Source of the DNA: an uncultured Ignavibacteriota bacterium
GTDB lineage: Bacteria > Bacteroidota > Ignavibacteria > UBA10030 > UBA8401
NCBI GenBank assembly: GCA_903861125.1
Contig: CAIOTF010000039.1
Location: 1 to 64,000 of the forward strand
Direction of reading: 5' to 3'
DNA length: 64,000 bases
Made by a program: the position numbers and the translations under genes. Positions within the stretch are counted from its first letter, which is position 1. Each line of letters begins with the position of its first letter. Shown in pieces: positions 8,954 to 22,781 of this stretch. The notes under the pieces are model-generated. The model ran no database searches and had not been told where the DNA came from. It was given only the letters and a program-made list of their open reading frames with translations.

Positions 8954-10027
8954 ATGTACATGATCACAGTCAACGAAATAGCAACGATCCTGGACGGCGA
9001 AGTTGTCGGCGACGGATCGATACGCATATCCGGTGTTGCCAAAGTAGAAGAGGCGCAGCAGGGGATGCTGGCGTTTATCGCAAATCCGAAGTACGAGAAA
9101 TATGCCGAAATCACTTCAGCATCATGTATCCTTGTCGGACGGAATTTTGATCCATCGAAATTTTCAAAAGTCCCGCCGGCGCTCATTAAACTGGATGATC
9201 CGTATTCTTCATTTGTTATTGCCATCGGCAAATTCGCTCCTAAAAAAATAGATATCGCAAAAGGTATCCATCCGACGGCAGTGATCTCTGCCAGCGCACA
9301 GATAGGGAGTGACTGTTCCATTGGAGCGTTGGTTGTGATCGGAGATCATGCAATCATCGGTGACCGTGTCACAATACATCCGCATGTGGCTATTGGACGC
9401 GATGTGAAGATCGGGAGCGATTGTTTGTTCTATTCGCAAGTAACCATCCGCGAAGAATGTATTATCGGGAAGAGAGTGGTCATTCAGCCGGGCGCAGTGA
9501 TTGGCGGCGACGGATTCGGATTTGCACCAAAGCAGGACAAGACCTACCAAAAAATTCCGCAATTAGGTATTGTAGTGATTGAAGATGATGTTGAAATACA
9601 AGCAAATACATGCGTCGACCGTGCAACGCTCGGAGAAACGCGGATAAAACGCGGTACGAAATTGGATAATCTGGTGCAGATCGCCCACAATGTTGTTGTC
9701 GGCGAAGATACCGTCATTGCAGGTTCATCCGGTGTTGCCGGCAGTACAAAGATAGGGAACCGGAACATGATCGGTGGTGCGGTAGCGATTACCGGACATA
9801 TTTTTACAGCAGATGATGTTAAAGTTGCAGGGGGTTCCACTGCGAGCCGTGCGCTGGATGAACCCGGTGAAACATACTCGGGGTATCCGGCCAAGAAAGT
9901 AGCAAAATGGAGAAGGATTGAAGCGGCATCGCGTTCACTTCCTGAGATGCTGATGGAAATGAAGGAATTGAAAGATAAAGTAAGCGCTCTTGAAGCAGAA
10001 ATCTTGAATATAAAAAAACAACGTTGA
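8954..10027 (+). CDS. lpxD: UDP-3-O-acylglucosamine N-acyltransferase LpxD
   Basis: LpxD adds the second (N-linked) acyl chain in lipid A synthesis. The 357-residue protein has the LpxD N-terminal uridine-binding domain (residues 1-100, including ISGVAKVEEAQQGMLAFIANPKY). A left-handed beta helix of hexapeptide repeats follows (about 105-310), with GGDGFGFAP and the catalytic-His region IAHNVVVGEDTVIAG. A C-terminal helix covers 325-357. ATG codons at 8954 and 8960 are both possible. No Shine-Dalgarno sequence is visible because the upstream bases form a terminator hairpin. Confidence 0.95.
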   Translation: MYMITVNEIATILDGEVVGDGSIRISGVAKVEEAQQGMLAFIANPKYEKYAEITSASCILVGRNFDPSKFSKVPPALIKLDDPYSSFVIAIGKFAPKKIDIAKGIHPTAVISASAQIGSDCSIGALVVIGDHAIIGDRVTIHPHVAIGRDVKIGSDCLFYSQVTIREECIIGKRVVIQPGAVIGGDGFGFAPKQDKTYQKIPQLGIVVIEDDVEIQANTCVDRATLGETRIKRGTKLDNLVQIAHNVVVGEDTVIAGSSGVAGSTKIGNRNMIGGAVAITGHIFTADDVKVAGGSTASRALDEPGETYSGYPAKKVAKWRRIEAASRSLPEMLMEMKELKDKVSALEAEILNIKKQR

Positions 10028-10047
10028 CGGGGAGCATCTGCCGGTAG

Positions 10048-10076
10048 ATCCCATCGGAGAAATATTTCGTTGGGAT
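10048..10076. repeat. Imperfect dyad upstream of lpxC-fabZ
   Basis: ATCCCA (10048-10053) and TGGGAT (10071-10076) flank a GAAATATTTC palindrome in the 91-bp gap between lpxD and lpxC-fabZ. There is no T-run, so this could be an mRNA hairpin or a protein site. Confidence 0.35.
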
Positions 10077-10118
10077 TGAATCATGAAACGCTGACCCACC
10101 AAAATTGCAGGAGGTTTG

Positions 10119-11531
10119 ATGTTAGTTCAACAGCGCACAATTAAAAAATCTGTTTCGATGTCCGGCATAGGTTTGCACACCGGTACACAGTGCACTATGA
10201 CGTTCCGGCCTGCACCCGAGAATTACGGGATCCGTTTCCGGCGTATTGATATCGGCGGCTCCCCGGAGATTCCGGCCGATGTGGATCATGTGGTCGAAGT
10301 GGCTCGCGGAACAACGCTGGGCATCGGCGACGTTCGTGTGCATACCACTGAACACGTGCTGGCGGCCATCGTCGGCTTGCTGATTGATAATATTATCATT
10401 GATCTTGACGGGATCGAACCGCCGATCGGCGACGGCAGCGCAAAACCGTACGTTGACGTTCTGCAGGAAGCCGGATTTGAAATGCAGGATGCTCCGAAAG
10501 ATTATCTTGTGATCGACCAGATGGTGGAATACAAGGATGAAAAACGCGGAGTTCACATCGTTGCATTGCCGACCGATGATTTCAGGATGACGGTGATGGT
10601 AGATTATAATAATCCCGCATTGGGAAGCCAGCATACCGGAATTTTCAACCTTGAACAGGAATTTGTCCCCGAATTTTCAATGTGCCGCACATTCTGTTTC
10701 CTGCACGAAGTGGAACAATTGCGTGAGGCAGGATTAATCAAAGGTGGTTCCCTTGATAATGCGATCGTTATTGCGGACAGAGATCTTCCGGACGAAGAAC
10801 TGCGCCGCATTGCCGATAAATTGGGGATCAAAGAATCGATCTTTTTAAATGGACATGGTCAGCCGATTAACAACAATGCACTTCGCTTCAAAAATGAACC
10901 GGCGCGCCATAAACTTCTCGACATGCTTGGCGACCTGGCATTGATCGGCGTACCGCTGAAAGCGCATATTCTTGCAGCTCGTCCCGGTCATGCAGCCAAC
11001 GTGGAGTTCGCAAAAGTTGTGCGCAAACTGTATCAGCAGAAGAAGATTGTTAAAAAATATCAGCACGAGAAAAAACAAGGTGTCGTATTCGACACCAATG
11101 CATTGCAGCGCATCCTTCCGCACCGCTATCCTTTTTTACTTGTCGATAAGATCGTCGAATTTAAACTGAACGAACGCTGCGTTGGCGTAAAAAGTGTTAC
11201 GATGAACGAGCAGTTTTTTCAGGGACACTTTCCAGGTGCTCCCGTGATGCCGGGCGTGCTGATCATTGAAGGAATGGCACAGACCGGAGGAATTCTGCTC
11301 CTGGATGGTTCCGATACGAACGACCGTCTTGTTCTGTTCATGGGCATCAACAATGCAAAGTTCAGACGGCAGGTTGTACCTGGCGACCAGTTGGTCTATG
11401 AATTGACTATGGTGAATCGCCGAAGTAAAGTCTGCACCATGCGTGGAGAAGCATATGTTGACGGTCAGCTGGTATGCGAAGCAGAGATGATGGCGACGAT
11501 TGTGGATAAACCAAAATTACCTAAATCATAA
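10119..11531 (+). CDS. lpxC/fabZ: Bifunctional LpxC deacetylase / FabZ dehydratase fusion
   Basis: This 470-residue fusion joins UDP-3-O-acyl-GlcNAc deacetylase, the committed zinc enzyme of lipid A synthesis, to 3-hydroxyacyl-ACP dehydratase. LpxC spans about residues 1-310, with GIGLHTG, the zinc motif HTTEHVLAA (His79), and the later ARHKLLDMLGDLALIG and GHAANVEFAK motifs. A lysine-rich linker leads to FabZ (about 328-470), with LPHRYPFLLVDKI and catalytic FFQGHFPGAPVMPGVLIIEGMAQ. AGGAGG lies 4 nt before the ATG. The fusion is a known hallmark of Bacteroidetes/Chlorobi-type genomes. It places two enzymes competing for 3-hydroxyacyl-ACP flux on one chain. Confidence 0.97.
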   Translation: MLVQQRTIKKSVSMSGIGLHTGTQCTMTFRPAPENYGIRFRRIDIGGSPEIPADVDHVVEVARGTTLGIGDVRVHTTEHVLAAIVGLLIDNIIIDLDGIEPPIGDGSAKPYVDVLQEAGFEMQDAPKDYLVIDQMVEYKDEKRGVHIVALPTDDFRMTVMVDYNNPALGSQHTGIFNLEQEFVPEFSMCRTFCFLHEVEQLREAGLIKGGSLDNAIVIADRDLPDEELRRIADKLGIKESIFLNGHGQPINNNALRFKNEPARHKLLDMLGDLALIGVPLKAHILAARPGHAANVEFAKVVRKLYQQKKIVKKYQHEKKQGVVFDTNALQRILPHRYPFLLVDKIVEFKLNERCVGVKSVTMNEQFFQGHFPGAPVMPGVLIIEGMAQTGGILLLDGSDTNDRLVLFMGINNAKFRRQVVPGDQLVYELTMVNRRSKVCTMRGEAYVDGQLVCEAEMMATIVDKPKLPKS

Positions 11532-11537
11532 AACTTT

Positions 11538-12344
11538 ATGGCTACTCAAATTCATTCCACCGCAATTGTCAGTGCCAAAGCGGAACTTTCCGAAGGCGTT
11601 ATTGTTGATCCGTATGCCATTATCGAAGATGATGTGATCATTGGTGAAGGCACATACATCGGACCGCATACATTAATTGCTAACGGTGCGCGGATCGGTA
11701 AGAACTGCAAGATCCATAAGGGTGCCGTTGTGTCGACACCTCCGCAGGATCTTTCCTACAAAAATGAACCGACACTCTTTGAACTGGGCGATAACTCAAC
11801 CATTCGCGAGTTTTGCACGCTCAACCGCGGTACAACAAAACAGCATCTTAAATCCACCGTCGGGAGCAATTGTCTTCTTATGGCATATGTGCACGTAGCA
11901 CACGATTGCGTTATCGGCAATAATGTGATTATTGCCAATTCAGTTCAAATGGCCGGACACGTGACCATCCATGACTTTTCAATCATCGGCGGACTTACCG
12001 CCATTCACCAATTCGTCAATATTGGCGCATATACGATGGTAGGAGGGCACTTCAGAGTTCCGAAGGACATTCCGCCCTATATTATTGCCGGAGGGTGGCC
12101 TGTGTCGTTTGAACGGCTTAATATCATCGGATTGCGAAGGAAGGGCTTCACGAAGGAAGCGATCGATTCATTGAATGAAGCTTACCGGATATTGTTTCTT
12201 TCCAAACTGAACGTAAGTCAAGGCGTTGAAAGAATAAAATCAACAATGACCATCACCCCTGAAGTACAGAAAGTACTGGATTTCATTGCTGTATCGAAAC
12301 GCGGTATTGTCACTGCTCGCCGGCATTCATCGGGCGATGAATAA
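11538..12344 (+). CDS. lpxA: UDP-N-acetylglucosamine acyltransferase LpxA
   Basis: LpxA performs the first acylation of UDP-GlcNAc for lipid A. The 268-residue protein is a hexapeptide left-handed beta helix (residues 1-190), with STPPQDLSYKNEPT, the catalytic-His region VHVAHDCVIGN and the diagnostic GGLTAIHQFVNIG segment. A C-terminal helical domain follows, including LNIIGLRRKGF. It starts 6 nt after lpxC-fabZ, so the two are surely cotranscribed. Confidence 0.97.
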   Translation: MATQIHSTAIVSAKAELSEGVIVDPYAIIEDDVIIGEGTYIGPHTLIANGARIGKNCKIHKGAVVSTPPQDLSYKNEPTLFELGDNSTIREFCTLNRGTTKQHLKSTVGSNCLLMAYVHVAHDCVIGNNVIIANSVQMAGHVTIHDFSIIGGLTAIHQFVNIGAYTMVGGHFRVPKDIPPYIIAGGWPVSFERLNIIGLRRKGFTKEAIDSLNEAYRILFLSKLNVSQGVERIKSTMTITPEVQKVLDFIAVSKRGIVTARRHSSGDE

Positions 12345-12350
12345 TTGACA

Positions 12351-13127
12351 ATGTCCGGAACTTCAAATCTCGCATGGCACTTCATTAATACCGGCTTTCA
12401 TACCGGCGCATACAACATGGAATATGATGTTGCGCTGGCCGGCAAATTACAGCGCGGAGAGATTCTTCCGACCCTTCGTTTGTATGGCTGGAAGCCATGG
12501 GCGGTTTCCCTCGGTTACAATCAGACAGAAAAAGATATCAATGAAAAAAAATGTTCCGAATACGGATTTGATATCGTCCGCCGTCCGACCGGCGGTAGGG
12601 CAATACTTCACGCAAACGAGCTGACCTATTCCGTGGTGATGGCTGCGGACGGAAAAGGGATCACGGAAATTTATTCTTTCATCAGCAAAGCATTGGTTGC
12701 AGGATTGTCAAAGATATGTCCTGAGGTATCGTACGAAACATCGCAGCCGAATTTTCAGTCGCTCTATAAAAAGCAGGAATCAATACCTTGTTTTTCCGCC
12801 TCTGCGCGGTACGAAGTTCAAATTAACGGAAAGAAATTGGTCGGCAGTGCTCAGCGCAGATTCTCATCACAGGACCTTCCTGAAGTTGTACTGCAGCATG
12901 GATCGATTCTGCTTGGTCCTGAACATAAACTTCTTGCCGAGATATTAAATGTTGAGCATCAGGAGGTAAAAGAAAAGATCGTGAATGATATTGGTTCAAA
13001 AACGATCGATCTATCATCTGCCGTTCGGCGGACCGTTTCATTCGATGAAACGGCATCAGCTATTCTTGCCGGTTTCCAGGAAACACTGAACACGAGTTTC
13101 GAACATCAACATGAGGCGATCATATGA
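12351..13127 (+). CDS. LipM-type octanoyltransferase / lipoate-protein ligase family
   Basis: This 258-residue protein belongs to the biotin/lipoate A/B ligase family. It has the substrate-binding RRPTGGRAILH motif near residue 78 and GKKLVGSAQRR near residue 163. A Cys in SIPCFSASARYEV matches the active-site Cys position I recall for LipM octanoyltransferases, favouring octanoyl transfer over ATP-dependent ligation. The ATG at 12351 is preceded in frame by a TTG at 12345 that touches the lpxA stop, so the start is uncertain by two codons. It overlaps panB by 4 bp. Confidence 0.8.
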   Translation: MSGTSNLAWHFINTGFHTGAYNMEYDVALAGKLQRGEILPTLRLYGWKPWAVSLGYNQTEKDINEKKCSEYGFDIVRRPTGGRAILHANELTYSVVMAADGKGITEIYSFISKALVAGLSKICPEVSYETSQPNFQSLYKKQESIPCFSASARYEVQINGKKLVGSAQRRFSSQDLPEVVLQHGSILLGPEHKLLAEILNVEHQEVKEKIVNDIGSKTIDLSSAVRRTVSFDETASAILAGFQETLNTSFEHQHEAII

Positions 13128-13942
13128 GTACGCAATCTTCCGATTATAAACGCATCACAACAAAGACCGTTCTCGCCATGAAGAAAAAAGGGGAGAAGAT
13201 CGCGATGCTGACCGCATATGATTATATCACGGCGCATCTGCTTGATGAGTCAGGAATCGACATAATTCTTGTTGGTGATTCTGTGGCAAATGTTTTTCAG
13301 GGACTTGAAACGACTATACCGGTAACCATAGATGAGATCATCTATCATACAAAAGTTGTCCGGCGTGCAGTAAAGAGAGCGATGCTTGTTGCCGATATGC
13401 CGTTCATGTCGTATCAGGTAGACATCAAAGAAGCTGTTCGTAATTGCGGCAGGATGTTAAAAGAGTCTGGCGCAGAAGCGGTAAAGATGGAAGGGGGTAA
13501 ACGTATCATACCCCTTATTGAGCAGCTTGTTGACATTGGCATTCCCGTTATGGGCCATTTAGGACTCACGCCGCAATCGATCTATAAATTCGGGACGTAT
13601 GAAGTACGTGCGAAAGAATCAGCAGAAGCAAAAAAACTGATCGACGATGCAAAAATGCTGGACAATGCCGGTGTATTCGGAATCGTTCTTGAAAAGATTC
13701 CCGATTCATTAGCGGCAAAAGTAACAAAAGCAGTTTCATGTGTAACGATCGGGATTGGAGCCGGTTCCGGCTGCGACGGCCAGGTTCTTGTTACGAATGA
13801 TATGCTGGGGATGAACGAACAATTTCGCCCGAGGTTTGTCAGGCAATACTCAAATCTTTCTGAGTCAATGCGATCGGCGTTTACGTCCTATATCAAGGAT
13901 GTAAAAGCTTCAAAATTTCCCAATAAAAAAGAGAGTTATTAA
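13124..13942 (+). CDS. panB: 3-methyl-2-oxobutanoate hydroxymethyltransferase PanB
   Basis: PanB transfers a hydroxymethyl group to ketoisovalerate to give ketopantoate for coenzyme A synthesis. The sequence shows MLTAYDYITAHLLDESGIDIILVGDS near the N-terminus, DMPFMSYQ, and the signature GAEAVKMEGG near residue 120. It then has PVMGHLGLTPQS and IGIGAGSGCDGQVLV. Length, 272 residues, is normal. The start overlaps the stop of the LipM-like gene (ATGA), suggesting coupled translation. A T-tailed hairpin lies about 85 nt downstream, past the start of the next promoter. Confidence 0.96.
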   Translation: MSTQSSDYKRITTKTVLAMKKKGEKIAMLTAYDYITAHLLDESGIDIILVGDSVANVFQGLETTIPVTIDEIIYHTKVVRRAVKRAMLVADMPFMSYQVDIKEAVRNCGRMLKESGAEAVKMEGGKRIIPLIEQLVDIGIPVMGHLGLTPQSIYKFGTYEVRAKESAEAKKLIDDAKMLDNAGVFGIVLEKIPDSLAAKVTKAVSCVTIGIGAGSGCDGQVLVTNDMLGMNEQFRPRFVRQYSNLSESMRSAFTSYIKDVKASKFPNKKESY

Positions 13943-13958
13943 AAGATAATTTTAAGTG

Positions 13959-13987
13959 TTGACATCTTCCCGTTAAGTAGGTACATT
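13959..13987 (+). promoter_or_regulatory. Promoter of the tetR-efflux operon
   Basis: TTGACA (13959-13964), an exact 17-bp spacer and TACATT (13982-13987) form a good sigma-70-type promoter just after panB and immediately before the first dyad. The transcript would carry both dyads and a hairpin before the tetR ATG. Confidence 0.6.
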
Positions 13988-14015
13988 GGAAACGGAAAAT
14001 ACGATTAAAGTTTCC
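13988..14015. promoter_or_regulatory. Candidate TetR operator, dyad 1
   Basis: GGAAAC and GTTTCC are separated by 16 bp, giving a 28-bp dyad starting directly after the -10 box. An identical dyad with the same spacing recurs 71 bp downstream. The position would block transcription initiation. Confidence 0.6.
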
Positions 14016-14026
14016 TTCTAAAAAAT

Positions 14027-14048
14027 GCCAAAATATTTGGCTTTTTTT
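14027..14048 (+). terminator. Hairpin with T-run between the two dyads
   Basis: GCCAAA (14027-14032), loop ATA and TTTGGC (14036-14041) are followed by seven T residues. It may terminate panB read-through, but it also lies inside the leader of the tetR transcript and could attenuate it. Confidence 0.65.
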
Positions 14049-14058
14049 AGGTAAACAT

Positions 14059-14086
14059 GGAAACTATAAAAAATATAAAAGTTTCC
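14059..14086. promoter_or_regulatory. Candidate TetR operator, dyad 2
   Basis: This is the second GGAAAC-N16-GTTTCC dyad, ending 23 bp before the tetR start codon. Arms and spacing match dyad 1 exactly while the spacer sequence differs, which argues for a bound dimeric protein. Confidence 0.6.
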
Positions 14087-14109
14087 CTGGTAAAAATAAA
14101 AGGCATACA

Positions 14110-14736
14110 ATGGAAGCGGTAGCAGAAAAAGAACCGAAAGAAAGAATCCTCGACCTGGCAAAGGAGAGGTTTTTTAAGATGGGTTTCAATAAAGTGACGC
14201 TCGATGAATTGTCCGGAGAACTCGGCATCAGTAAAAAAACAATGTACAAGTTTTTTATCAACAAGGATGATCTGGTGAAAACAATCGTCTGGATGATGCT
14301 GAAAAGAATTGAGAAAGAAGTTCACCGTATCTCTGAAGAAGATAAACCGTTTGTGCACCGGTTAGCGGAACTGATCTTATATACCGGAAAGACCTTCGGC
14401 AGTTTAAGCAAATCGTTTCAGCAGGATATGAAACGATTTGCACCGATGATTTGGGCCGAAGCAGAAAAATACCGTCAGGAACATATCGTAAACAAAGTGG
14501 CGGAGATGATACGGCAGGCAAAAAAAGAAAATGTCTTCCGCAGCGACATTAATGATGAAGTGATCGTGATGATGCTGGCGAGCTGCTTTCAGAACATTCT
14601 CACTCCGGAAGTGCTCGGGGAACATTCATTCTCACCGAAAGAAGCAATTTTTACGATCTTTCATGTTATTTTCGAAGGAGCTCTGACCGAGGAAGCACGC
14701 AAAGAATTTTTGAATTATGAAATAACCATTTTTTAA
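14110..14736 (+). CDS. TetR/AcrR family transcriptional regulator
   Basis: This is a 208-residue repressor-type protein. The N-terminal helix-turn-helix (residues about 12-58) reads KERILDLAKERFFKMGF, then KVTLDELSGELGISKKTMYKFFINKDDLV, typical of TetR. The rest is an all-helical ligand-binding domain. AAAAGG lies 7 nt before the ATG. It heads an operon with a membrane fusion protein and a four-gene ABC-2 exporter. The natural inference is local control by the two GGAAAC-N16-GTTTCC dyads upstream, relieved by an exported compound. Confidence 0.92.
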   Translation: MEAVAEKEPKERILDLAKERFFKMGFNKVTLDELSGELGISKKTMYKFFINKDDLVKTIVWMMLKRIEKEVHRISEEDKPFVHRLAELILYTGKTFGSLSKSFQQDMKRFAPMIWAEAEKYRQEHIVNKVAEMIRQAKKENVFRSDINDEVIVMMLASCFQNILTPEVLGEHSFSPKEAIFTIFHVIFEGALTEEARKEFLNYEITIF

Positions 14737-14746
14737 TGAGGAGAGT

Positions 14747-15766
14747 ATGAAACAGTTCAATTTTATTTCACAGATGAGACAACATGTTCATTATCTTTCG
14801 CGGGGGAATAGCGGTCGTCTACACCGTTTTTTCACGGTTTTGTTGATCGTATATTTTTCCGGATGCGGCAATAATGGAAAAACGATCGAGTCGAGCGGCA
14901 TCCTTGAAACGGTGGAAGTTAATGTTGCGTCGAAGGTGCCGGGACAATTGATGCGTCTTGATGTTCAGGAAGGGGTGATAGTAAAGAAAGGGGATACACT
15001 GGCCATTATTGATCATGAGACACAGCAATTACAATTACAGCAGGCTCAAGCAGGAATCGATCTTGCCGAAGCGCAGTATCAACTGCTGAAAAATGGAGCC
15101 CGCTCCGAAGATCTGCAATCCGCCGAAGAGTCGGTCCGGCAATCAGAGTCCGGATATAAAACTGCAGCTTCTGATTTTGAGCGTATCAAGGAGTTATATT
15201 CATCGAATTCCGTACCAAAAAAACAATACGAAGATGCAGAATCCCGTGCGACGATCACTAAGGCTCAGTTCAATTCGGCAAAACAGAATCTGCTAAAGCT
15301 GCAGCGCTTTGCCCGTATCGAAGACTTGAGCGCGGCGAAAGCGCGCGTGGACCAGGCCAAAGCTCAAGCGAATCTTATTAAAAAACAAATTATTGATTCG
15401 TATGTCGTTGCTCCGGTTTCCGGAACGATAACATACAAGCCGGTTGAGGAAGGTGAGCTGATCGGAATGGGAACAACCATCGTCCGTATTTCGCGTCTTG
15501 AAAAAATGGAGCTGATGATCTATGTGAACGAAACTGAACTGGGCAAGGTGAAATTGGGATCATCAGCCGATGTGCTCATCGATACGTTTCCCGATAAAAA
15601 GTATCCTGCAACGGTGGTCTATATCTCTCCCGTGGCGGAATTCACCCCGCGCAATGTTCAAACGAAAGATGAACGGACAAAACTTGTTTTCGGCGTGAAA
15701 CTTGAGGTCGAAAATGCGAACGGCGAACTGAAATCCGGCATGCCGGCTGACGCCTTTGTGAAATGA
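14747..15766 (+). CDS. HlyD/YbhG-type membrane fusion lipoprotein
   Basis: This periplasmic adaptor links the ABC exporter to the outer membrane. It has an unusually long N-terminal leader of about 35 residues, then a hydrophobic stretch ending FSGC, which suggests a lipid-anchored Cys. A biotinyl-lipoyl-like segment (VASKVPGQLMRLDVQEGVIVKKGDTLAIID) follows. A long coiled-coil hairpin spans about residues 95-215, then a second lipoyl half (VVAPVSGTITYKPVEEGE) and a beta-barrel domain. GAGGAG precedes the ATG. It overlaps the first ATPase gene by 4 bp. Gene order matches the E. coli ybhGFSR exporter. Confidence 0.9.
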   Translation: MKQFNFISQMRQHVHYLSRGNSGRLHRFFTVLLIVYFSGCGNNGKTIESSGILETVEVNVASKVPGQLMRLDVQEGVIVKKGDTLAIIDHETQQLQLQQAQAGIDLAEAQYQLLKNGARSEDLQSAEESVRQSESGYKTAASDFERIKELYSSNSVPKKQYEDAESRATITKAQFNSAKQNLLKLQRFARIEDLSAAKARVDQAKAQANLIKKQIIDSYVVAPVSGTITYKPVEEGELIGMGTTIVRISRLEKMELMIYVNETELGKVKLGSSADVLIDTFPDKKYPATVVYISPVAEFTPRNVQTKDERTKLVFGVKLEVENANGELKSGMPADAFVK

Positions 15767-16689
15767 ATTCTATGAATGCCCTGGAATTACATTCAGTCCA
15801 TAAGTCGTTCGGAGAGATCATCGCCGTCGATGATCTGTCGCTAACCGTGGACCGCGGTGAGATGTTCGCTCTGGTCGGTCCTGACGGATCGGGTAAGACA
15901 ACGACGATCCGCATGCTGTGCGGAATTGTCAAACCGACGAAAGGTGATCTGCTTGTTCTCGGCTTTGACGTGCAGAAACAAAAGGAAGAAGTGAAAAAAA
16001 GGATCGGGTACTTGTCCCAAAAGTTTTCACTTTACGGTGATCTCACAATCGACGAGAATATTGAATTCTTTGCCGAAATTCATGGCGTGTACGATTACAA
16101 AGAACGCAGGAATGAACTGCTCGAATTTACGCGTCTTATTCCGTTTCGCGACCGCCTTGCAGAAAAATTATCCGGCGGTATGAAGCAAAAACTTGCCCTG
16201 GCATGCACGCTTATCCACACGCCGGATATTATATTTTTGGATGAACCGACAACGGGTGTAGATCCAGTCTCACGCAGGGATTTTTGGAAGGTCCTATCGG
16301 CACTTCTGAAGACGGGCATCACGATCATTATGACCACGCCGTATCTTGATGAAGCCGAACGCTGCAGCCGTGTAGCGCTGATGGACAAAGGACGGGTGCT
16401 GATGGCCGACACGCCTTCCAATTTGAAAAAAGTGATGAACGGCGAAGTAGTAGAGATCGTCTGTTCGGATATCAGGCGTTCATTTTCCTTAATGAAAAAG
16501 TTCGCTGCTGTGAAAGAAGTACAAGCGTTCGGCGACCGTTTGAATATTGTTGTAGCGTCATCGTCTCGCGATATGCAGTCCGTGTTGGATCATTTGAAAA
16601 ACCAAACGATCGAAGTATCGGATTGGAGAGTGGTAAAACCCTCTCTTGAAAATGTTTTTATTTCATTACTGACGGACCGGAAGAATTGA
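15763..16689 (+). CDS. ABC transporter ATPase with degenerate H-loop
   Basis: This 308-residue ABC-2-type nucleotide-binding protein corresponds to one half of the fused YbhF ATPase. It has Walker A GPDGSGKTT (39-47), a Q-loop at YLSQKFSLYGDL, signature LSGGMKQ (136-142), and Walker B IIFLDEPTTGVD (156-167). The switch position reads TTPYLDEAE, with Pro193 where the catalytic His normally stands, so its ATP site may be weak or regulatory. The next gene encodes a partner with an intact His. Stop and start overlap that gene by one base. Confidence 0.93.
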   Translation: MNSMNALELHSVHKSFGEIIAVDDLSLTVDRGEMFALVGPDGSGKTTTIRMLCGIVKPTKGDLLVLGFDVQKQKEEVKKRIGYLSQKFSLYGDLTIDENIEFFAEIHGVYDYKERRNELLEFTRLIPFRDRLAEKLSGGMKQKLALACTLIHTPDIIFLDEPTTGVDPVSRRDFWKVLSALLKTGITIIMTTPYLDEAERCSRVALMDKGRVLMADTPSNLKKVMNGEVVEIVCSDIRRSFSLMKKFAAVKEVQAFGDRLNIVVASSSRDMQSVLDHLKNQTIEVSDWRVVKPSLENVFISLLTDRKN

Positions 16690-17621
16690 TGAATACCATC
16701 GAAGTCGAGAATCTGACGAAACGTTTTGGGAAATTCACCGCCGTTGATCACATCAACTTTGAGGTGAAACAAGGCGAGATCTTCGGATTTTTGGGAGCGA
16801 ACGGTGCAGGTAAATCAACGACAATACGCATGCTGTGCGGATTGCTTTCGTCATCGGAAGGGACGGCGCGTGTCGGTGGATTCGATATCAATAAAGATCC
16901 GAACAGCGTGAAAGAAAGCATCGGATACATGTCGCAAAAATTCTCGTTGTATGAAGATCTTACGGTTACGGAGAATATCGAATTTTTCGGAAAGGTATAT
17001 GGGTTATCGGATTCCGACCTGAACGAGCGCAAGAACTGGGTGCTTGATATTGCAAATCTTCACGGCAGGGAACACAGTATTACGCAAACATTAAGCGGTG
17101 GCTGGAAACAGCGCCTTGCACTCGGTTGTGCCGTTCTTCATCGTCCGCGAATCATTTTTCTTGACGAGCCTACCAGCGGTGTCGATCCGGTAATGCGAAG
17201 AAAATTCTGGGAATTGATCAATGATCTTTCTGCGGAAGGGGTAACGGTACTGGTGACGACACATTTTCTTGAAGAAGCGGAGTATTGCAATGATATCATC
17301 CTTATCAACGCGGGGAAGATCATTGCGGCCGGCAGTCCGAAAGAGTTGAAACAGAACTATATCAAACATCCAATCCTTGAAGTGCAGTGTTCCGATGTCG
17401 TTGATGCGATGGAAAAGATCGAAACGCAGCCGTGGGCGGTGGAAACATCAATTTTCGGTACGAGTATCCACGTCAATGTAGAGGATGAAGAAAAGGCAAG
17501 AGTGAAGATCAAAGAATTATTATCCGGTGCGAAGATCAATTTGATTGCCATCGAACGTATCACCCCGTCACTCGAAGATGTGTTCATTTATCTTCTGGAT
17601 CAACAGGGGGGAGAGAAATAA
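16689..17621 (+). CDS. ABC transporter ATPase with canonical motifs
   Basis: This second nucleotide-binding protein of the exporter has 310 residues. It has Walker A GANGAGKST (36-44), YMSQKFSLYEDL, signature LSGGWKQRLALG, Walker B IIFLDEPTSGVD and an intact switch histidine in TTHFLEEAEYC. A C-terminal extension of about 85 residues (VLEVQCSDVVDAMEKIETQ...) is like that of its neighbour, showing that the two arose by duplication. The ATG at 16689 shares a base with the previous stop. It probably forms a heterodimer with the preceding ATPase. Confidence 0.93.
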   Translation: MNTIEVENLTKRFGKFTAVDHINFEVKQGEIFGFLGANGAGKSTTIRMLCGLLSSSEGTARVGGFDINKDPNSVKESIGYMSQKFSLYEDLTVTENIEFFGKVYGLSDSDLNERKNWVLDIANLHGREHSITQTLSGGWKQRLALGCAVLHRPRIIFLDEPTSGVDPVMRRKFWELINDLSAEGVTVLVTTHFLEEAEYCNDIILINAGKIIAAGSPKELKQNYIKHPILEVQCSDVVDAMEKIETQPWAVETSIFGTSIHVNVEDEEKARVKIKELLSGAKINLIAIERITPSLEDVFIYLLDQQGGEK

Positions 17622-17622
17622 T

Positions 17623-18750
17623 ATGTTCAGACAATTGCTTCCGATCATAACAAAAGAGTTCCGGCAGATAAAGCGGGATAGACGAGTGCTGGCGATACTT
17701 ACGCTCGTACCGGCCATGCTGCTGCTGCTCAACGGATATGCTCTGAACTTCGATGTTCGGAATATTAAAATGGCAGTGTATGACGGCGAGAAAAGTTCAC
17801 AAAGCAGGGAGCTGGTCAGCAGTTTCCTGACAGCCGGATATTTTGAATACACGGAGCATCTTACCGATTATTCAATGGCCCAATCGCTAATCGATGAAGG
17901 AACGGTGAAATTAGTGCTTGTCATTCCCCCCGGTTTTTCACGCGAGATCATTTCAGGACGTCAAACATCCATCCAGCTTCTTGTGGACGGGATGGATGCC
18001 AATGCAGCGGCAACGATCATCGGCTACGCACAGGCTGTAACGCAGCAATATTCACAGCAGATCATCCTCCGGAATCTTTCAAAGATAGGCCGGAAAAGTT
18101 ATATCCCGGTCAATTATGAAGCGCGTATCTGGTACAATCCGGAGATGAAGAGTGCAAAATTTCTTGTGCCAGGACTGATCGCATTCATTTTGGCGATTAC
18201 CGGAGTAATTGCGACGGCGCTTTCCATTGTAAAAGAAAAGGAAAGGAATACCATTGAACAGATAGATGTATCGCCGATCAAACCGCTCAGTCTGATAGTG
18301 GGGAAGATGATACCGTATGCCATTATCTCGCTAGTGGCTGCGGCTCTTGTATTGATCGCTGCCTATTTCATGTTTGATGTTCAGGTGAAAGGCAGTCTCG
18401 TGATGCTGTTCTTTGCTACATTACTTTTCGTGTGTGCTGCACTGGGGCAGGGACTGCTTGTATCAACCATCGCCGACAGCCAGCAGGTTGCATTTCAAAT
18501 TGCTTCAGTGGTTTCCATGCTGCCCACGATGATCCTTTCCGGATTTATGTTCCCCATAAAAAGTATGCCGTTGTTTCTGCAGATAATTTCCAACATCACT
18601 CCCGCGAAGTTCTATCTTGTGATCATGCGGGGCATCGTACTGAAAGGTGTAGGCATTGAAGCGTTCTGGCAGCAGATGATCTATCTTCTCATTTTTATCA
18701 CGGTCGTTGTCACGATCAGCGTCAAACGGTTCAAACAGCATTCGGTATAA
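17623..18750 (+). CDS. ABC-2 type permease (first of pair)
   Basis: This is a 375-residue ABC-2 permease of the YbhS/YbhR kind. One N-terminal membrane helix (VLAILTLVPAMLLLLNGYAL) precedes a periplasmic domain of about 140 residues. A bundle of five helices follows from about residue 180, and the family-typical ERNTIEQIDVSPIKPLSLIVGKMIPY cytoplasmic loop lies within it. The ATG at 17623 follows the ATPase stop by one base; the open frame starts earlier inside the ATPase gene. It pairs with the next gene. Confidence 0.92.
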   Translation: MFRQLLPIITKEFRQIKRDRRVLAILTLVPAMLLLLNGYALNFDVRNIKMAVYDGEKSSQSRELVSSFLTAGYFEYTEHLTDYSMAQSLIDEGTVKLVLVIPPGFSREIISGRQTSIQLLVDGMDANAAATIIGYAQAVTQQYSQQIILRNLSKIGRKSYIPVNYEARIWYNPEMKSAKFLVPGLIAFILAITGVIATALSIVKEKERNTIEQIDVSPIKPLSLIVGKMIPYAIISLVAAALVLIAAYFMFDVQVKGSLVMLFFATLLFVCAALGQGLLVSTIADSQQVAFQIASVVSMLPTMILSGFMFPIKSMPLFLQIISNITPAKFYLVIMRGIVLKGVGIEAFWQQMIYLLIFITVVVTISVKRFKQHSV

Positions 18751-18751
18751 C

Positions 18752-19876
18752 ATGAATATCCGGCGATTACAGGCATTGGTAAATAAAGAATTCGCTCAAT
18801 TCTTTAAGGATAAGCGGCTGCTGCCGATCATTTTCGTTGCACCGATCATCCAGCTTACGCTGTTAGGTTTTGCAGCATCATTGGATGTAAAGAATATTTC
18901 ATTCGTCCTTTGCGACCTGGACAAAACGAGTGAAAGCCGAAAATTTGCGGAATCGTTTACCAATTCCGGATATTTCACAATGGAATATTCTACGGAAGAT
19001 TATAATGATGTTCAGCGCTACCTCGATGAAAGCAAAGCGGCAATGGCACTTGTGATCCCGCCGAAATTCGGGAATAAAATATTGCGGCGGGAAACCGTTG
19101 ATGTGCAGGTGCTCTTTGACGGAAGTGAGGGAAATTCCACGGCGATTGCCTCGGGATATGTCATGCAGATCATAAGCCGTTATTCACAGAATGTTCTGGT
19201 AAATATTGTCGGCGATTTAAAACGGCTTGGCGGAATTAATTCGGAGATACGTGCGTGGTACAATCCGTCGCTGATCAGCAGAAAGTTCATGGTTCCGGGC
19301 GTTCTGGTGCTGATTCTGCTCATCACAACAACAAACCTTACCGCTATGGCCATTGTAAAAGAAAAAGAAGTCGGAACGCTTGAACAACTTCTTGTTACAC
19401 CGTTGCGTCCGGTCGAATTAATAATAGGAAAACTGATCCCGTTTACGCTGATCGGTCTTATTGTTGTTACGTTTGCCCTTCTGGTGATGATATTCGGATT
19501 TTCCATTCCGGTGCGAGGTTCCATCGTTTTGCTCTATGTCTTAACAGGATTTTTTTTGATGACGTCGCTTGGACTTGGTTTGTTCGTTTCGACTATTTCA
19601 AAGACCCAACAGCAGGCGATGATGGTCGGCATGTTCTTCGTGCTGATGCCCATGATGTACATTTCGGGATTTGTCTTTCCGGTTGAAAATATGCCGAAGA
19701 CCCTTCAAGTGATTGCCAATCTTATTCCGATGAAATATTATCTGGTCGTGATCCGTTCGATCATTTTGAAAGGTGTCGGCATATCGCATTTATGGTTCGA
19801 GGCAGTAATGCTTTTCGTTATGGGTGTGGTTGTGCTGACGGCCAGCGTAATGCGGTTCAAAGAAAAGACCGATTAA
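18752..19876 (+). CDS. ABC-2 type permease (second of pair)
   Basis: This 374-residue permease has the same topology as its neighbour and is clearly paralogous. It has an N-terminal helix, a periplasmic domain (DLDKTSESRKFAESFTNSGYF), then KEKEVGTLEQLLVTPLRPVELIIGKLIPF and five membrane helices. The pair would form a heterodimeric pore driven by the two ATPases. Its stop codon overlaps by 4 bp the stop of the convergent patatin gene, so there is no room for a terminator between them. Confidence 0.92.
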   Translation: MNIRRLQALVNKEFAQFFKDKRLLPIIFVAPIIQLTLLGFAASLDVKNISFVLCDLDKTSESRKFAESFTNSGYFTMEYSTEDYNDVQRYLDESKAAMALVIPPKFGNKILRRETVDVQVLFDGSEGNSTAIASGYVMQIISRYSQNVLVNIVGDLKRLGGINSEIRAWYNPSLISRKFMVPGVLVLILLITTTNLTAMAIVKEKEVGTLEQLLVTPLRPVELIIGKLIPFTLIGLIVVTFALLVMIFGFSIPVRGSIVLLYVLTGFFLMTSLGLGLFVSTISKTQQQAMMVGMFFVLMPMMYISGFVFPVENMPKTLQVIANLIPMKYYLVVIRSIILKGVGISHLWFEAVMLFVMGVVVLTASVMRFKEKTD

Positions 19877-22626
19877 AGAATCGGGTATCCGAGTGAGATG
19901 TATGCAACAACAGGTCCAAGCGTCAACGGTTGGTCGAGCAGATCCCTTCGTATATAGAAACTTCTTCCAAGAGAAAAATTGATCGGTCCCGCCGGAGTGT
20001 CAAGCGAAATCACCGCACCTACCCCATGATGGAAATCTCTGAAACGGATGTCTTCCCGCTGCGGCCAAATGCTGCCGAGATCATATCTCAACCTGAAATA
20101 CGTATCCCAAATTACCTGGAAGGGAAATCGTGTGCGAAGCTCAACGCTGGTAAGGAATACTTGACGGCCGCGGGAGTCGTATTCACGCAAACCAAAAAAA
20201 GAATCTTCGCCTCCCAAAGAAAATTGCTGGGTCAGCGGAAGGGTCTGATCGCCGAAACCAATAATAATTTTCGGCACCAGAGTGAAATTGCTGTAGGAAG
20301 TGTTTGTTTCATAGGCGAGATAGATCTTTGAATATCCAACATCACCCACAACGCCTTTTAATGAGGATGTTGCCGTTTCCCAGGAAAAATTTGTGAGAGA
20401 TCCTTTTCGGGCGAAAGGATACCGGTCCCGCGAATCAATGGTCGATGAGATTCTGAACGCCTGAAGAGAGAATTGTTCCGGCTGATATCCTGTTCCGGAA
20501 ATAAATTTGACTTCATCAGATTCGAGTCGATACTCTATATTGAATATGCCAAAGCGTTCAACCTGCTGCCCAAGCTGCAGCGAAACGCCATAAATGACCT
20601 GTCGGTATTCACCGTTACGCGAGCGTACAAACTCTGTCCGGTTACTCCTGGCAGGATCGGTAAAATACGAATCAATATCCCGAAGGTCATAATATGCATC
20701 AAGATTGAACGTAAAGTACGAGTTGAATATTCTGTTCGCCTGGAAATCGGCGATATATTTTCTGTTGCTCAGCCCACCGGCAAAACTTGCCCCGATCTCT
20801 GTTGCGGTACCCAGAAGATTTTCGTTCCGGAATTCCAGCGATGGTTGAACATTTCTTTCGTTGTCGATCCTGAAGCCAAGCCGCGAAACGTCGGTCGGTT
20901 TTTCTTCCATTTGTATCGAGATTACCGGAAGATCGTTCTCATAACCGACATCCATGGATACTTGTTCAAAAAGATTTGTGCCGTATAGATTGGCCAAAGC
21001 TTTTCTCCCTTTATCAACGGTAAAGATATTCCCGTCGCGAAAACCCAACTCTCTCCAGATCACCCAATCGCGGGAATATTTTTTCCCCTTTAGATATATT
21101 TTTTGGATGATGCCTTCATTGATCCCGAGCGAAAGTTTCCCCGACAGCGTATCGAAATGAACCGATTGAATGCGTGCCAGGGAATAACCGTTCTCGCGAT
21201 ACATACCCAGGAATTGTTCAAATGCAGACTCCAAGTTCGGAATGTTAACTGGTTTCCCAATAAGCGAGTCAATAGGCCCCATAAGTACATCCGATTCAAC
21301 CAATGTGTTTCCGGATATTTCAACGGACCGCAATAAAGGATTTACGGCCGTTTGGATTTTCAGATATGCTGATGTATCAATCAGCGACAATTCTCCGCTG
21401 ACATTGCTATATTGTCCGGTATTGTACAGGCTGGAAATGATTTCCCGTAGTGCCGGAATAGATGTTCTGGAGTTTTTTCCTATCGGCAGCAAAAGAACTG
21501 AGTCAGATGTGAGGATGTTATGTTCTAACCTGTCTATAGTGAAAGAAAAACTGGATAAGGGGGAAGCGTCACGAAGTGACAAATATATTTTACTATTAAT
21601 GCTGTCCTTGATCTCATTTATTTTATTAAGAGCAGCAATACTTCCCTGTTGTTTGGCAAACGCCAGATGTGTGAAATCGACGAATGGAAACTGACCAAGG
21701 TCGGGCGTAATAACTATTGTGGCATTTTCCAAAGACTGTTTATTCTTTTCCTGAGCCATGATGTTGACTATCTGGTCGGTTACTTCCCAGGGATTGTTTA
21801 ACTGTGAAGCGGTCCGCAACGGACTGACGACATTCACGGCAATGATAATATCAGCTCCGAGTTTTTTTGCAACATCAACAGGTATATTAGAAACCAAGCC
21901 GCCGTCGGTCAGTTCCAGTGTATCTTTTTTCAAAGGACTGTAAAGCAGGGGAATAGAAATGCTGGCTCGCAATGCTTCCGAAAGATTTCCCGAACGAAAG
22001 ACTATTTGTTTGCCGGAGACAAGATCTGTTGAAACACACCGGAAAGGAATCTTCAAATCGTCAAAATTCTTAACGGGATGATACAAACTCTGGAGAGTGA
22101 GCTGATTGATGAAATTCGTGAGTCTCTGACCGCTTGAAAGTGCCGAAGGAAGAATCGGTGTTAGTCCGTCAAACCGTAACGTCAATTGTTTACGGTCGGC
22201 AGCAACTTTGTGGGAAAGATACATATCCTCACGTTCGTTATCCTGTGTCAGGGAGAGAACGTAATTCCAGTCCGTTGAATCGACAAGTTTTTCAAGTTCC
22301 GCTGTTGTATATCCGGATGCGTATAATCCGCCTATGATTCCTCCGATGCTTGAACCGACAATAAAATCGATCGGGATATTGTTCTTTTCAAGTTCTTTCA
22401 GAACGCCAATATGCGCAATACCCCTTGCGCCGCCGCCGCTCAGCACTAAGCAAACAGTCGGACGTTTAATCTTTTGAAATTTTACCGTAAAGATGGTATC
22501 TGCAGGTGTTTCGGAAAAGACCGGCGAAATGGTTAAAGTTCTTTCCTGAGAATTCGCGAGGATAATAAAAGAGAATAAACAGGCAAGAACTCTAATAAAG
22601 GTATGTGAAAAAACGTTTTTGCGCAT
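19873..22626 (-). CDS. Patatin-POTRA-Omp85 barrel protein (type Vd autotransporter-like)
   Basis: This 917-residue outer-membrane protein fuses a phospholipase to its own transporter. A signal peptide (VLACLFSFIILANSQ) is followed by a patatin domain (about 55-350). That domain has the oxyanion loop GGGARG (64-69), the nucleophile Ser93 in GSSIGG and the Asp241 partner in LTDGGLVSN. POTRA repeats cover about 375-550 and an Omp85 barrel runs to the C-terminus. This is the architecture of PlpD-like proteins. I chose the start MRKNVFSH; the open frame continues 41 codons upstream with no signal-like sequence. It is divergent from a small membrane protein gene. Confidence 0.9.
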   Translation of the reverse strand: MRKNVFSHTFIRVLACLFSFIILANSQERTLTISPVFSETPADTIFTVKFQKIKRPTVCLVLSGGGARGIAHIGVLKELEKNNIPIDFIVGSSIGGIIGGLYASGYTTAELEKLVDSTDWNYVLSLTQDNEREDMYLSHKVAADRKQLTLRFDGLTPILPSALSSGQRLTNFINQLTLQSLYHPVKNFDDLKIPFRCVSTDLVSGKQIVFRSGNLSEALRASISIPLLYSPLKKDTLELTDGGLVSNIPVDVAKKLGADIIIAVNVVSPLRTASQLNNPWEVTDQIVNIMAQEKNKQSLENATIVITPDLGQFPFVDFTHLAFAKQQGSIAALNKINEIKDSINSKIYLSLRDASPLSSFSFTIDRLEHNILTSDSVLLLPIGKNSRTSIPALREIISSLYNTGQYSNVSGELSLIDTSAYLKIQTAVNPLLRSVEISGNTLVESDVLMGPIDSLIGKPVNIPNLESAFEQFLGMYRENGYSLARIQSVHFDTLSGKLSLGINEGIIQKIYLKGKKYSRDWVIWRELGFRDGNIFTVDKGRKALANLYGTNLFEQVSMDVGYENDLPVISIQMEEKPTDVSRLGFRIDNERNVQPSLEFRNENLLGTATEIGASFAGGLSNRKYIADFQANRIFNSYFTFNLDAYYDLRDIDSYFTDPARSNRTEFVRSRNGEYRQVIYGVSLQLGQQVERFGIFNIEYRLESDEVKFISGTGYQPEQFSLQAFRISSTIDSRDRYPFARKGSLTNFSWETATSSLKGVVGDVGYSKIYLAYETNTSYSNFTLVPKIIIGFGDQTLPLTQQFSLGGEDSFFGLREYDSRGRQVFLTSVELRTRFPFQVIWDTYFRLRYDLGSIWPQREDIRFRDFHHGVGAVISLDTPAGPINFSLGRSFYIRRDLLDQPLTLGPVVAYISLGYPIL

Positions 22627-22781
22627 AGGGAATACTAAAAGATACAAAAATCCCGAATAAAATACCCGTTTTTTTGGGTGGTACGGTCCCGTTGCAGCAA
22701 CGAACCAGCGTTGATTTCCGTCACGGACCATTTTCCAAAATTGTTGCAATATTATTATACAATTACGATGAAAGGTTTCTC

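Follow-up and report, generated by a model that had tools for sequence, protein, structure and literature searches.

A control region with two layers of autoregulation probably lies in front of a TetR-repressed efflux operon within 64,000 nucleotides of DNA from an uncultured Ignavibacteriota bacterium (the whole of this stretch is referred to here as the window). We give a probability of around 60% to the reading in which one operator-like dyad would serve TetR at the promoter and a second would serve as a roadblock that aids termination at a leader hairpin. The component parts, their conservation in relatives and a nearly fixed distance between hairpin and second dyad wherever the hairpin is present are all directly visible when the sequences are compared.

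The control region and its operon

The promoter (TTGACA-N17-TACATT, 13959-13987, on the plus strand like all the features of the operon described here) comprises a -35 element at 13959-13964, a 17 bp spacer and a -10 element at 13982-13987, and is preceded at a distance of 16 bp by the end of panB (13942; identified by Pfam). Dyad 1 (13988-14015), an exact GGAAAC-N16-GTTTCC and the predicted operator O1, abuts the -10 element and covers the probable transcription start at about 13994. An 11-bp stretch then leads to a 15-nt hairpin (GCCAAA-ATA-TTTGGC, 14027-14041) and a U-tract of seven T residues (14042-14048), in which the short leader RNA is predicted to have its 3' end; hairpin and U-tract together (14027-14048) have the sequence form of an intrinsic terminator. 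Beyond a 10-bp gap (14049-14058) lies dyad 2 (14059-14086), also an exact match and the proposed roadblock site, operator O2. The sequence-only reading of this DNA had described the two dyads, 71 bp apart, the promoter directly before the first and the hairpin with its seven T residues between them, and was accurate on each. Dyad 2 is ~65 bp downstream of the start predicted from sequence, the position that roadblock regulation requires of a regulator site.

A likely ribosome-binding site (AAAAGG, 14098-14103) precedes the operon's first gene, which begins with the ATG at 14110 and encodes a TetR-family regulator of 208 amino acids (14110-14736; Pfam TetR_N, E 3.9e-9, 36.6 bits against a cut-off of 24). 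The AlphaFold model of this protein is helical (pLDDT 91.8) and its best PDB fold matches are TetR-family structures; the model thus resembles TetR folds in general and reveals neither ligand nor operator. Downstream are genes for a HlyD/YbhG-like membrane-fusion protein (14747-15766; Pfam HlyD_D23), two ABC ATPases (15763-16689 and 16686-17621; each Pfam ABC_tran and DrrA1-3_C) and two ABC-2 permeases (17620-18750 and 18749-19876; each Pfam ABC2_membrane_3). The E. coli CecR (YbiH)-YbhGFSR system likewise consists of a TetR regulator, an HlyD-type adaptor, an ABC ATPase and two ABC-2 permeases, and the gene order (TetR, adaptor, ATPase(s), two permeases) is common to both. The window operon differs, however, in having two separate ATPase genes, and its adaptor scores below the NCBIfam equivalog cut-off (NF002939, E 2.7e-64, 217 bits against 393). 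Of the flanking DNA, the region upstream of panB (8954-13942 including panB itself) contains frames whose translations read as lpxD-, lpxC/fabZ-, lpxA- and lipoate-ligase-like, and a 958-amino acid frame on the minus strand (19873-22749) runs convergently towards the pump operon, its translation resembling a patatin-type lipase fused to an outer-membrane barrel.

Conservation of the operator and promoter

A search of the 4.19 Mb genome for the exact dyad pattern, as the sequence-only reading had suggested, found it in two places only, both at this locus, so that no third exact site marks a wider regulon in this genome; the reversed pattern gave zero matches in the same 4.19 Mb. When up to two mismatches were allowed, the 64-kb window contained five matches (two of them exact) against 3.77 expected, a number equalled in 30 of 100 shuffles. 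The loose pattern is therefore at chance level in the window and only the exact pair stands out. A search for plasmid copies gave no match. A further suggestion, that related genomes be scanned, was also followed: 48 of the 60 genomes searched (the window's own included) contain the exact pattern, not always near tetR. An additional exact copy in one relative (G047:C151, L288) falls within a long open frame and is taken to be a chance occurrence.

Upstream DNA was compared for 60 TetR homologues from the window's order (L039-L098, counting the two from the window's genome) and for a further 100 from the class and phylum (L137-L236), 160 loci in total. Among relatives that bear a name, the closest have TetR proteins 88, 78, 75 and 69% identical and are metagenome-assembled genomes (MAGs) of uncultured bacteria, two labelled Ignavibacteriae bacterium and one each Bacteroidetes bacterium and Bacteroidota bacterium. 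A site with no more than two mismatches lies within 400 bp upstream of tetR at 139 of the 160 loci and is absent from 21. The sequence-only reading had named lack of conservation upstream of orthologous tetR genes as grounds for abandoning its proposal; the dyads are instead widely conserved there. TetR proteins commonly regulate their own genes, and this habit, together with the position and conservation of the dyads, leads us to infer that TetR binds them and that GGAAAC-N16-GTTTCC is the likely operator of this TetR family. Searches of the literature with the operator letters returned only unrelated papers among the matches listed.

Promoter elements are retained along with the sites. At the 60 loci with a pair of sites (defined below), the -10 element is TATATT in 31 and the hexamer 17 bp upstream of it starts with TTG in 50. 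The commonest promoter among relatives is TTGACA-N17-TATATT and the commonest junction TATATT|GGAAAC, of which the window's TACATT|GGAAAC is a variant. Across the 45 two-site loci that also have a terminator, the hexamer directly preceding dyad 1 has T, A, T, A, T and T in 93, 100, 80, 66, 97 and 97% of cases, respectively. The suggestion that an operator acts at the initiation site is thus supported by comparison, with dyad 1 abutting the -10 element and the sites kept in relatives. The claim that the spacers of the two dyads differ is also true, but both dyads nevertheless have an asymmetric inner A-N-A-C in common (operator positions 12, 14 and 15), which is kept in the same orientation in both dyads across the 45 terminator loci, the window's own dyad 2 carrying A at position 15. 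This inner motif could provide an additional half-site; in dyad 1 it could instead belong to a stem-loop at the 5' end of the RNA.

A nearly fixed distance between terminator and dyad 2

Site pairs were defined as two sites with up to three mismatches, 50-120 bp apart, at least one of them with no more than one mismatch, and terminators by a score of at least 16. Both rules were set after the first loci had been viewed and were then applied unchanged to a hold-out; the pair scan missed some weak pairs, such as that at L088. By these rules, two sites 50-120 bp apart are present in 60 of the 160 loci (45 of the 60 from the order and 15 of the 100 others), with dyad spacings of 59 to 113 bp among relatives. 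A hairpin with a U-tract lies between the sites in 45 of the 60 pairs (33/45 in the order, 12/15 elsewhere), compared with 1.85 expected from mononucleotide shuffles, a null that preserves base composition only. Ten of the 12 terminator loci outside the order belong to a single genus (g44, family f12), the others being L148 (f24) and L157 (f11).

At 42 of the 45 loci the hairpin stops 14-19 nt short of dyad 2. The same is true of 17 of the 74 hairpins that arose by chance in shuffled sequence, and the observed spread of this distance in the 45 loci (sd 2.17) was never as small in 20,000 trials of uniform placement. Three loci fall outside the range: L040 and L049, where pairing of the U-tract lengthens the stem (the U-tract itself ends 8 nt before dyad 2), and L157, whose terminator is off the usual distance. 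In the same 45 loci the distance from dyad 1 to the hairpin ranges from 0 to 32 nt, the two dyads are spaced 59-93 bp apart, and there are 43 distinct hairpin strings. The pattern is also visible when all 60 pairs are aligned on dyad 2 without selection for a terminator, T accounting for 65-85% of bases at positions -17 to -11; alignment of the 60 pairs on dyad 1 gives no such T peak. The gap between U-tract and dyad 2 is nearly constant in length and not in sequence, positions -8 to -1 holding no more than 0.36 bit each across the 45 loci. A preliminary scan of the order, whose rule differed slightly, had identified a hairpin at 37 two-site loci; 33 of these were at the score limit, and in these 33 the hairpin ended 10-19 nt before dyad 2.

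Comparison of relatives thus bears out the earlier view that the terminator belongs to the control region, and supports the second block that had been suggested. The nearly fixed distance, a feature absent from the sequence-only reading, ties terminator and dyad 2 together. That the site geometry has been kept whilst the hairpins have changed suggests a role for the bound repressor in helping the hairpin to stop stray transcription.

Two loci of family f6 appear to have the downstream half of this arrangement only. At L059, a TTGACA-N17-TATGAT promoter has no site of its own and is followed directly by a hairpin, six T residues, an 11-bp gap and one perfect operator; L252 is similar, with TATTTT as its -10 element, a less regular hairpin, a U-tract, 11 bp and dyad 2, and again no dyad 1. 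Both were picked after inspection of the sequences and their promoters were read from sequence alone; if these promoters are real, dyad 2 and the terminator must carry regulation on their own.

The two-site design with a hairpin occurs twice in the window's genome, once ahead of the ABC-2 pump genes and once ahead of RND pump genes. The second TetR (L085), 37% identical to the first, has two one-mismatch dyads 92 bp apart with a hairpin ending 16 nt before the second, and heads genes for an outer-membrane efflux channel, an HlyD adaptor and an AcrB-type RND pump. The same terminator-operator unit precedes an adaptor and RND pump at L139, from another family of the class, L085 and L139 being the two loci at which RND pumps were confirmed.

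Controls, kinship and hold-out

Of 63 single-site loci in which site and gene are separated by 25 nt or more, 1 has a terminator-like element in that interval, in a similar amount of sequence (3215 nt, against 3153 nt between pairs), and none of the 60 pairs has such an element between dyad 2 and the gene. Random upstream positions were preceded by a hairpin ending 14-19 nt away in 4 of 1180 cases. Five of 75 single-site loci (L059, L150, L165, L180 and L221) have a terminator-like element within 25 nt upstream of their only site; we read only L059 as a probable terminator-operator unit, although L165 may be either another such unit or the end of a preceding gene. The 45 leader hairpins have a median stability of -6.7 kcal/mol, compared with -4.6 kcal/mol for gene-end candidates in the window, which number only 10 and are mostly poor, too small a set to show the leader hairpins to be weaker or stronger than ordinary terminators.

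Since the loci are related, 42 of 45 does not represent 42 independent events. A tree-aware test of second site against terminator on the protein tree, in which L059 was set by hand as having a terminator and from which L049 (a partial gene, counted among the 60 pairs) was left out, gave seven supported independent pairs; on average, 3.6 varied in the same way and 0.1 in the other, and the sign test was not significant (median p 0.125). The terminator label requires 14 changes on this tree, at least seven of them forced by supported branches, so the terminator has been gained or lost several times; dyad-spacing classes, as we defined them, need 10 changes.

The hold-out consisted of all 28 matches at E 1e-35 or better in new genomes of the order, minus L287 (whose contig ends in the gene), giving 27 loci, one of which (L266) looks like a near copy of L063. 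These contain 17 site pairs, with a hairpin in only three, all three at 14-19 nt; of the 14 pairs without a terminator, 12 belong to family f6 of the order. Two sites thus often exist without a hairpin, above all in f6, and the terminator-operator unit is frequent rather than universal.

A proposed mechanism

In the first layer of the proposed mechanism, TetR bound to dyad 1 would block initiation or promoter escape. In the second, the same protein on dyad 2, whose edge is 10 bp past the U-tract, would act as a roadblock: polymerase that had escaped the first layer would meet it with the RNA 3' end still in the U-tract, would dwell there and would be released by the hairpin together with an RNA of about 55 nt. 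Inducer would remove TetR, leaving polymerase free to start, unblocked and able to pass the hairpin and to transcribe tetR and the pump genes. Four of these steps are inferred: the attachment of TetR to the dyads, its action as a roadblock, its promotion of termination, and the readthrough that follows induction.

The distances are compatible with such a scheme. Intrinsic terminators release RNA about 7-9 nt past the hairpin, and release is here predicted at 14048-14050, 9-11 bp before dyad 2. The leading edge of polymerase projects beyond its active site by more than this, so the enzyme should run up against bound TetR whilst the RNA end is in the U-tract, and the time spent there should favour the hairpin. 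In the part of the roadblock literature drawn on here, polymerase is estimated to approach to about 5 bp from an operator edge (PMC4132739 section 16), so it could reach the end of the U-tract before dyad 2 stops it. Roadblocked polymerase is described there as being released mainly by Mfd (PMC10310618, PMC4132739), and the window's genome contains an Mfd match above the family cut-off. That promoter-near complexes retaining sigma resist Mfd is put forward as one possible explanation, which the authors' modelling bore out only in part (PMC4132739 section 16); since polymerase stalled this close to the promoter may keep sigma, a hairpin at the stall point would supply an Mfd-independent means of release.

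Alternative explanations

The same parts could also make up ordinary double-operator repression combined with a constitutive leader terminator, TetR on dyad 2 forming simply a second block and the hairpin acting alone, independently of TetR. Hairpin, U-tract and dyad 2 could each reduce readthrough by known principles, and many pairs do without a hairpin (14 of the 17 in the hold-out and 15 of the 60 in the discovery set). Neither the near-constant 14-19 nt distance nor the rarity of terminators between site and gene at single-site loci is predicted by a terminator that works by itself, however, and we consider this explanation unlikely. Still less probable is that TetR proteins on the two dyads repress the promoter through looping or cooperative contact, with the terminator incidental. 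The identical arms 71 bp apart and the clustering of spacings near 71, 83 and 92 would suit the looping that the sequence-only reading had offered as a possibility, but the helical phasing (resultant 0.65 near 10.5 bp among the 60 related loci) falls to 0.28 when distinct spacings only are counted, 687 of 5000 random sets being as well phased, so that no significant 10-11 bp periodicity supports it. Looping is not usual in the TetR family, and L059 and L252 lack dyad 1 altogether.

Attenuation had also been suggested and stands in so far as a terminator does lie in the control region, between promoter and first gene. In its usual RNA sense, with a terminator/antiterminator switch governed by a leader peptide or riboswitch ligand, it is very improbable: no upstream complement of the hairpin 5' arm exceeds 4 nt in any of the 45 leaders, an ATG is present in just 12 of the 45, and no Rfam match was found up to E 1. 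The notion that the hairpin belongs to panB or to a second promoter at dyad 2, its placement being a coincidence of short intergenic DNA, gains something from the proximity of the panB end to the promoter and from the few hairpin-less relatives with a -10-like hexamer beside dyad 2, yet we find it barely credible. The hairpin is downstream of the tetR promoter; terminator loci include some in which 250-700 bp of upstream sequence yielded no panB (found at 16 of the 160 loci); and no promoter-like element is conserved just upstream of dyad 2 in the 45 terminator loci, where the gap of nearly constant length and unconserved sequence speaks against a promoter. At some pairs without a terminator (L055, L060, L249, L257 and L273), an AT-rich or TATATT-like sequence immediately precedes dyad 2 and may be a second promoter.

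Comparison with known systems and implications

QacR of S. aureus is a TetR-family efflux repressor, a pair of dimers of which binds IR1, a large inverted repeat overlapping the promoter (PMC3022030). The 28-bp dyad 1, abutting the -10 element and covering the predicted start, is likewise a long inverted repeat that overlaps the promoter; the portion of that source used here describes one operator and no terminator, in contrast to the two dyads and hairpin of the window (PMC3022030). QacR is absent from the best 60 of 159 PDB sequence matches to the window's TetR. Roadblocks formed by LacI, CcpA and CodY resemble the proposed second layer in that a regulator bound downstream of the start stops elongating polymerase, but release there is attributed, in the parts cited, to Mfd or possibly Rho, rather than to an intrinsic hairpin at the proposed stall point (PMC10310618, PMC4132739). 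In bidirectional terminators, as described in the relevant part of one account, head-on collision of polymerases and a nascent RNA hairpin together set the termination site, much like the proposed block and hairpin, except that the block is another polymerase rather than a regulated repressor (PMC13082048).

The Reb1 and TTF-I roadblock terminators of eukaryotic rDNA consist of a T-rich element followed at a short distance by a bound protein. The T-rich element and nearby protein site have their likeness in the window; the rDNA systems differ in marking a constitutive gene end, in serving another polymerase and in having no hairpin.

Each element of the scheme has precedent (TetR autorepression, double operators, roadblocks, hairpin terminators); what would be new is that a regulated repressor site and an intrinsic terminator are coupled, and that this coupling is conserved. 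The matches listed from the open-access literature included no description of such an arrangement, which is no proof of absence. More broadly, we would lay even odds that this is a regulated roadblock-terminator, in which a ligand-responsive repressor ~17 bp past the hairpin makes the terminator conditional and drug binding to a DNA-bound protein, rather than an RNA switch, decides between release and readthrough. The module (hairpin, U-tract, ~10 bp, operator) would have been retained, lost or evolved anew in several families of the class and could work without an operator at the promoter. If true, this would provide natural comparative evidence for repressor and intrinsic terminator acting jointly as a conditional stop whose spacing rule can be read from the sequence, would explain how a promoter-near repressor site is made tight and would offer a simple, testable design for synthetic switches. 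The work also points to the likely operator of an efflux-regulator family whose members, in this analysis, come largely from metagenome-assembled genomes.

Variant sites and regulators

Members of the phylum outside the class usually have one site, which in several lies just upstream of a TAnnTTTG-like element, an element resembling the Bacteroidetes -7 box. At L224, L226, L227, L231 and L234, the single operator is directly upstream of it, and the same operator seems to be used there at another place relative to the promoter. At L206, L211 and L212 the two sites are separated by 41-43 bp; TTGACA falls within the first, and no terminator was seen in the interval. Seven loci from family f15 of the class (L164, L165, L168, L172, L175, L177 and L182) have an operator one base longer, GGAAAC-N17-GTTTCC, the arms being extended to GGAAACC/GGTTTCC in most of the seven. 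Finally, two TetR-family matches at L217 (G170:C73) lie within one open frame of 457 amino acids, perhaps a fused regulator pair.
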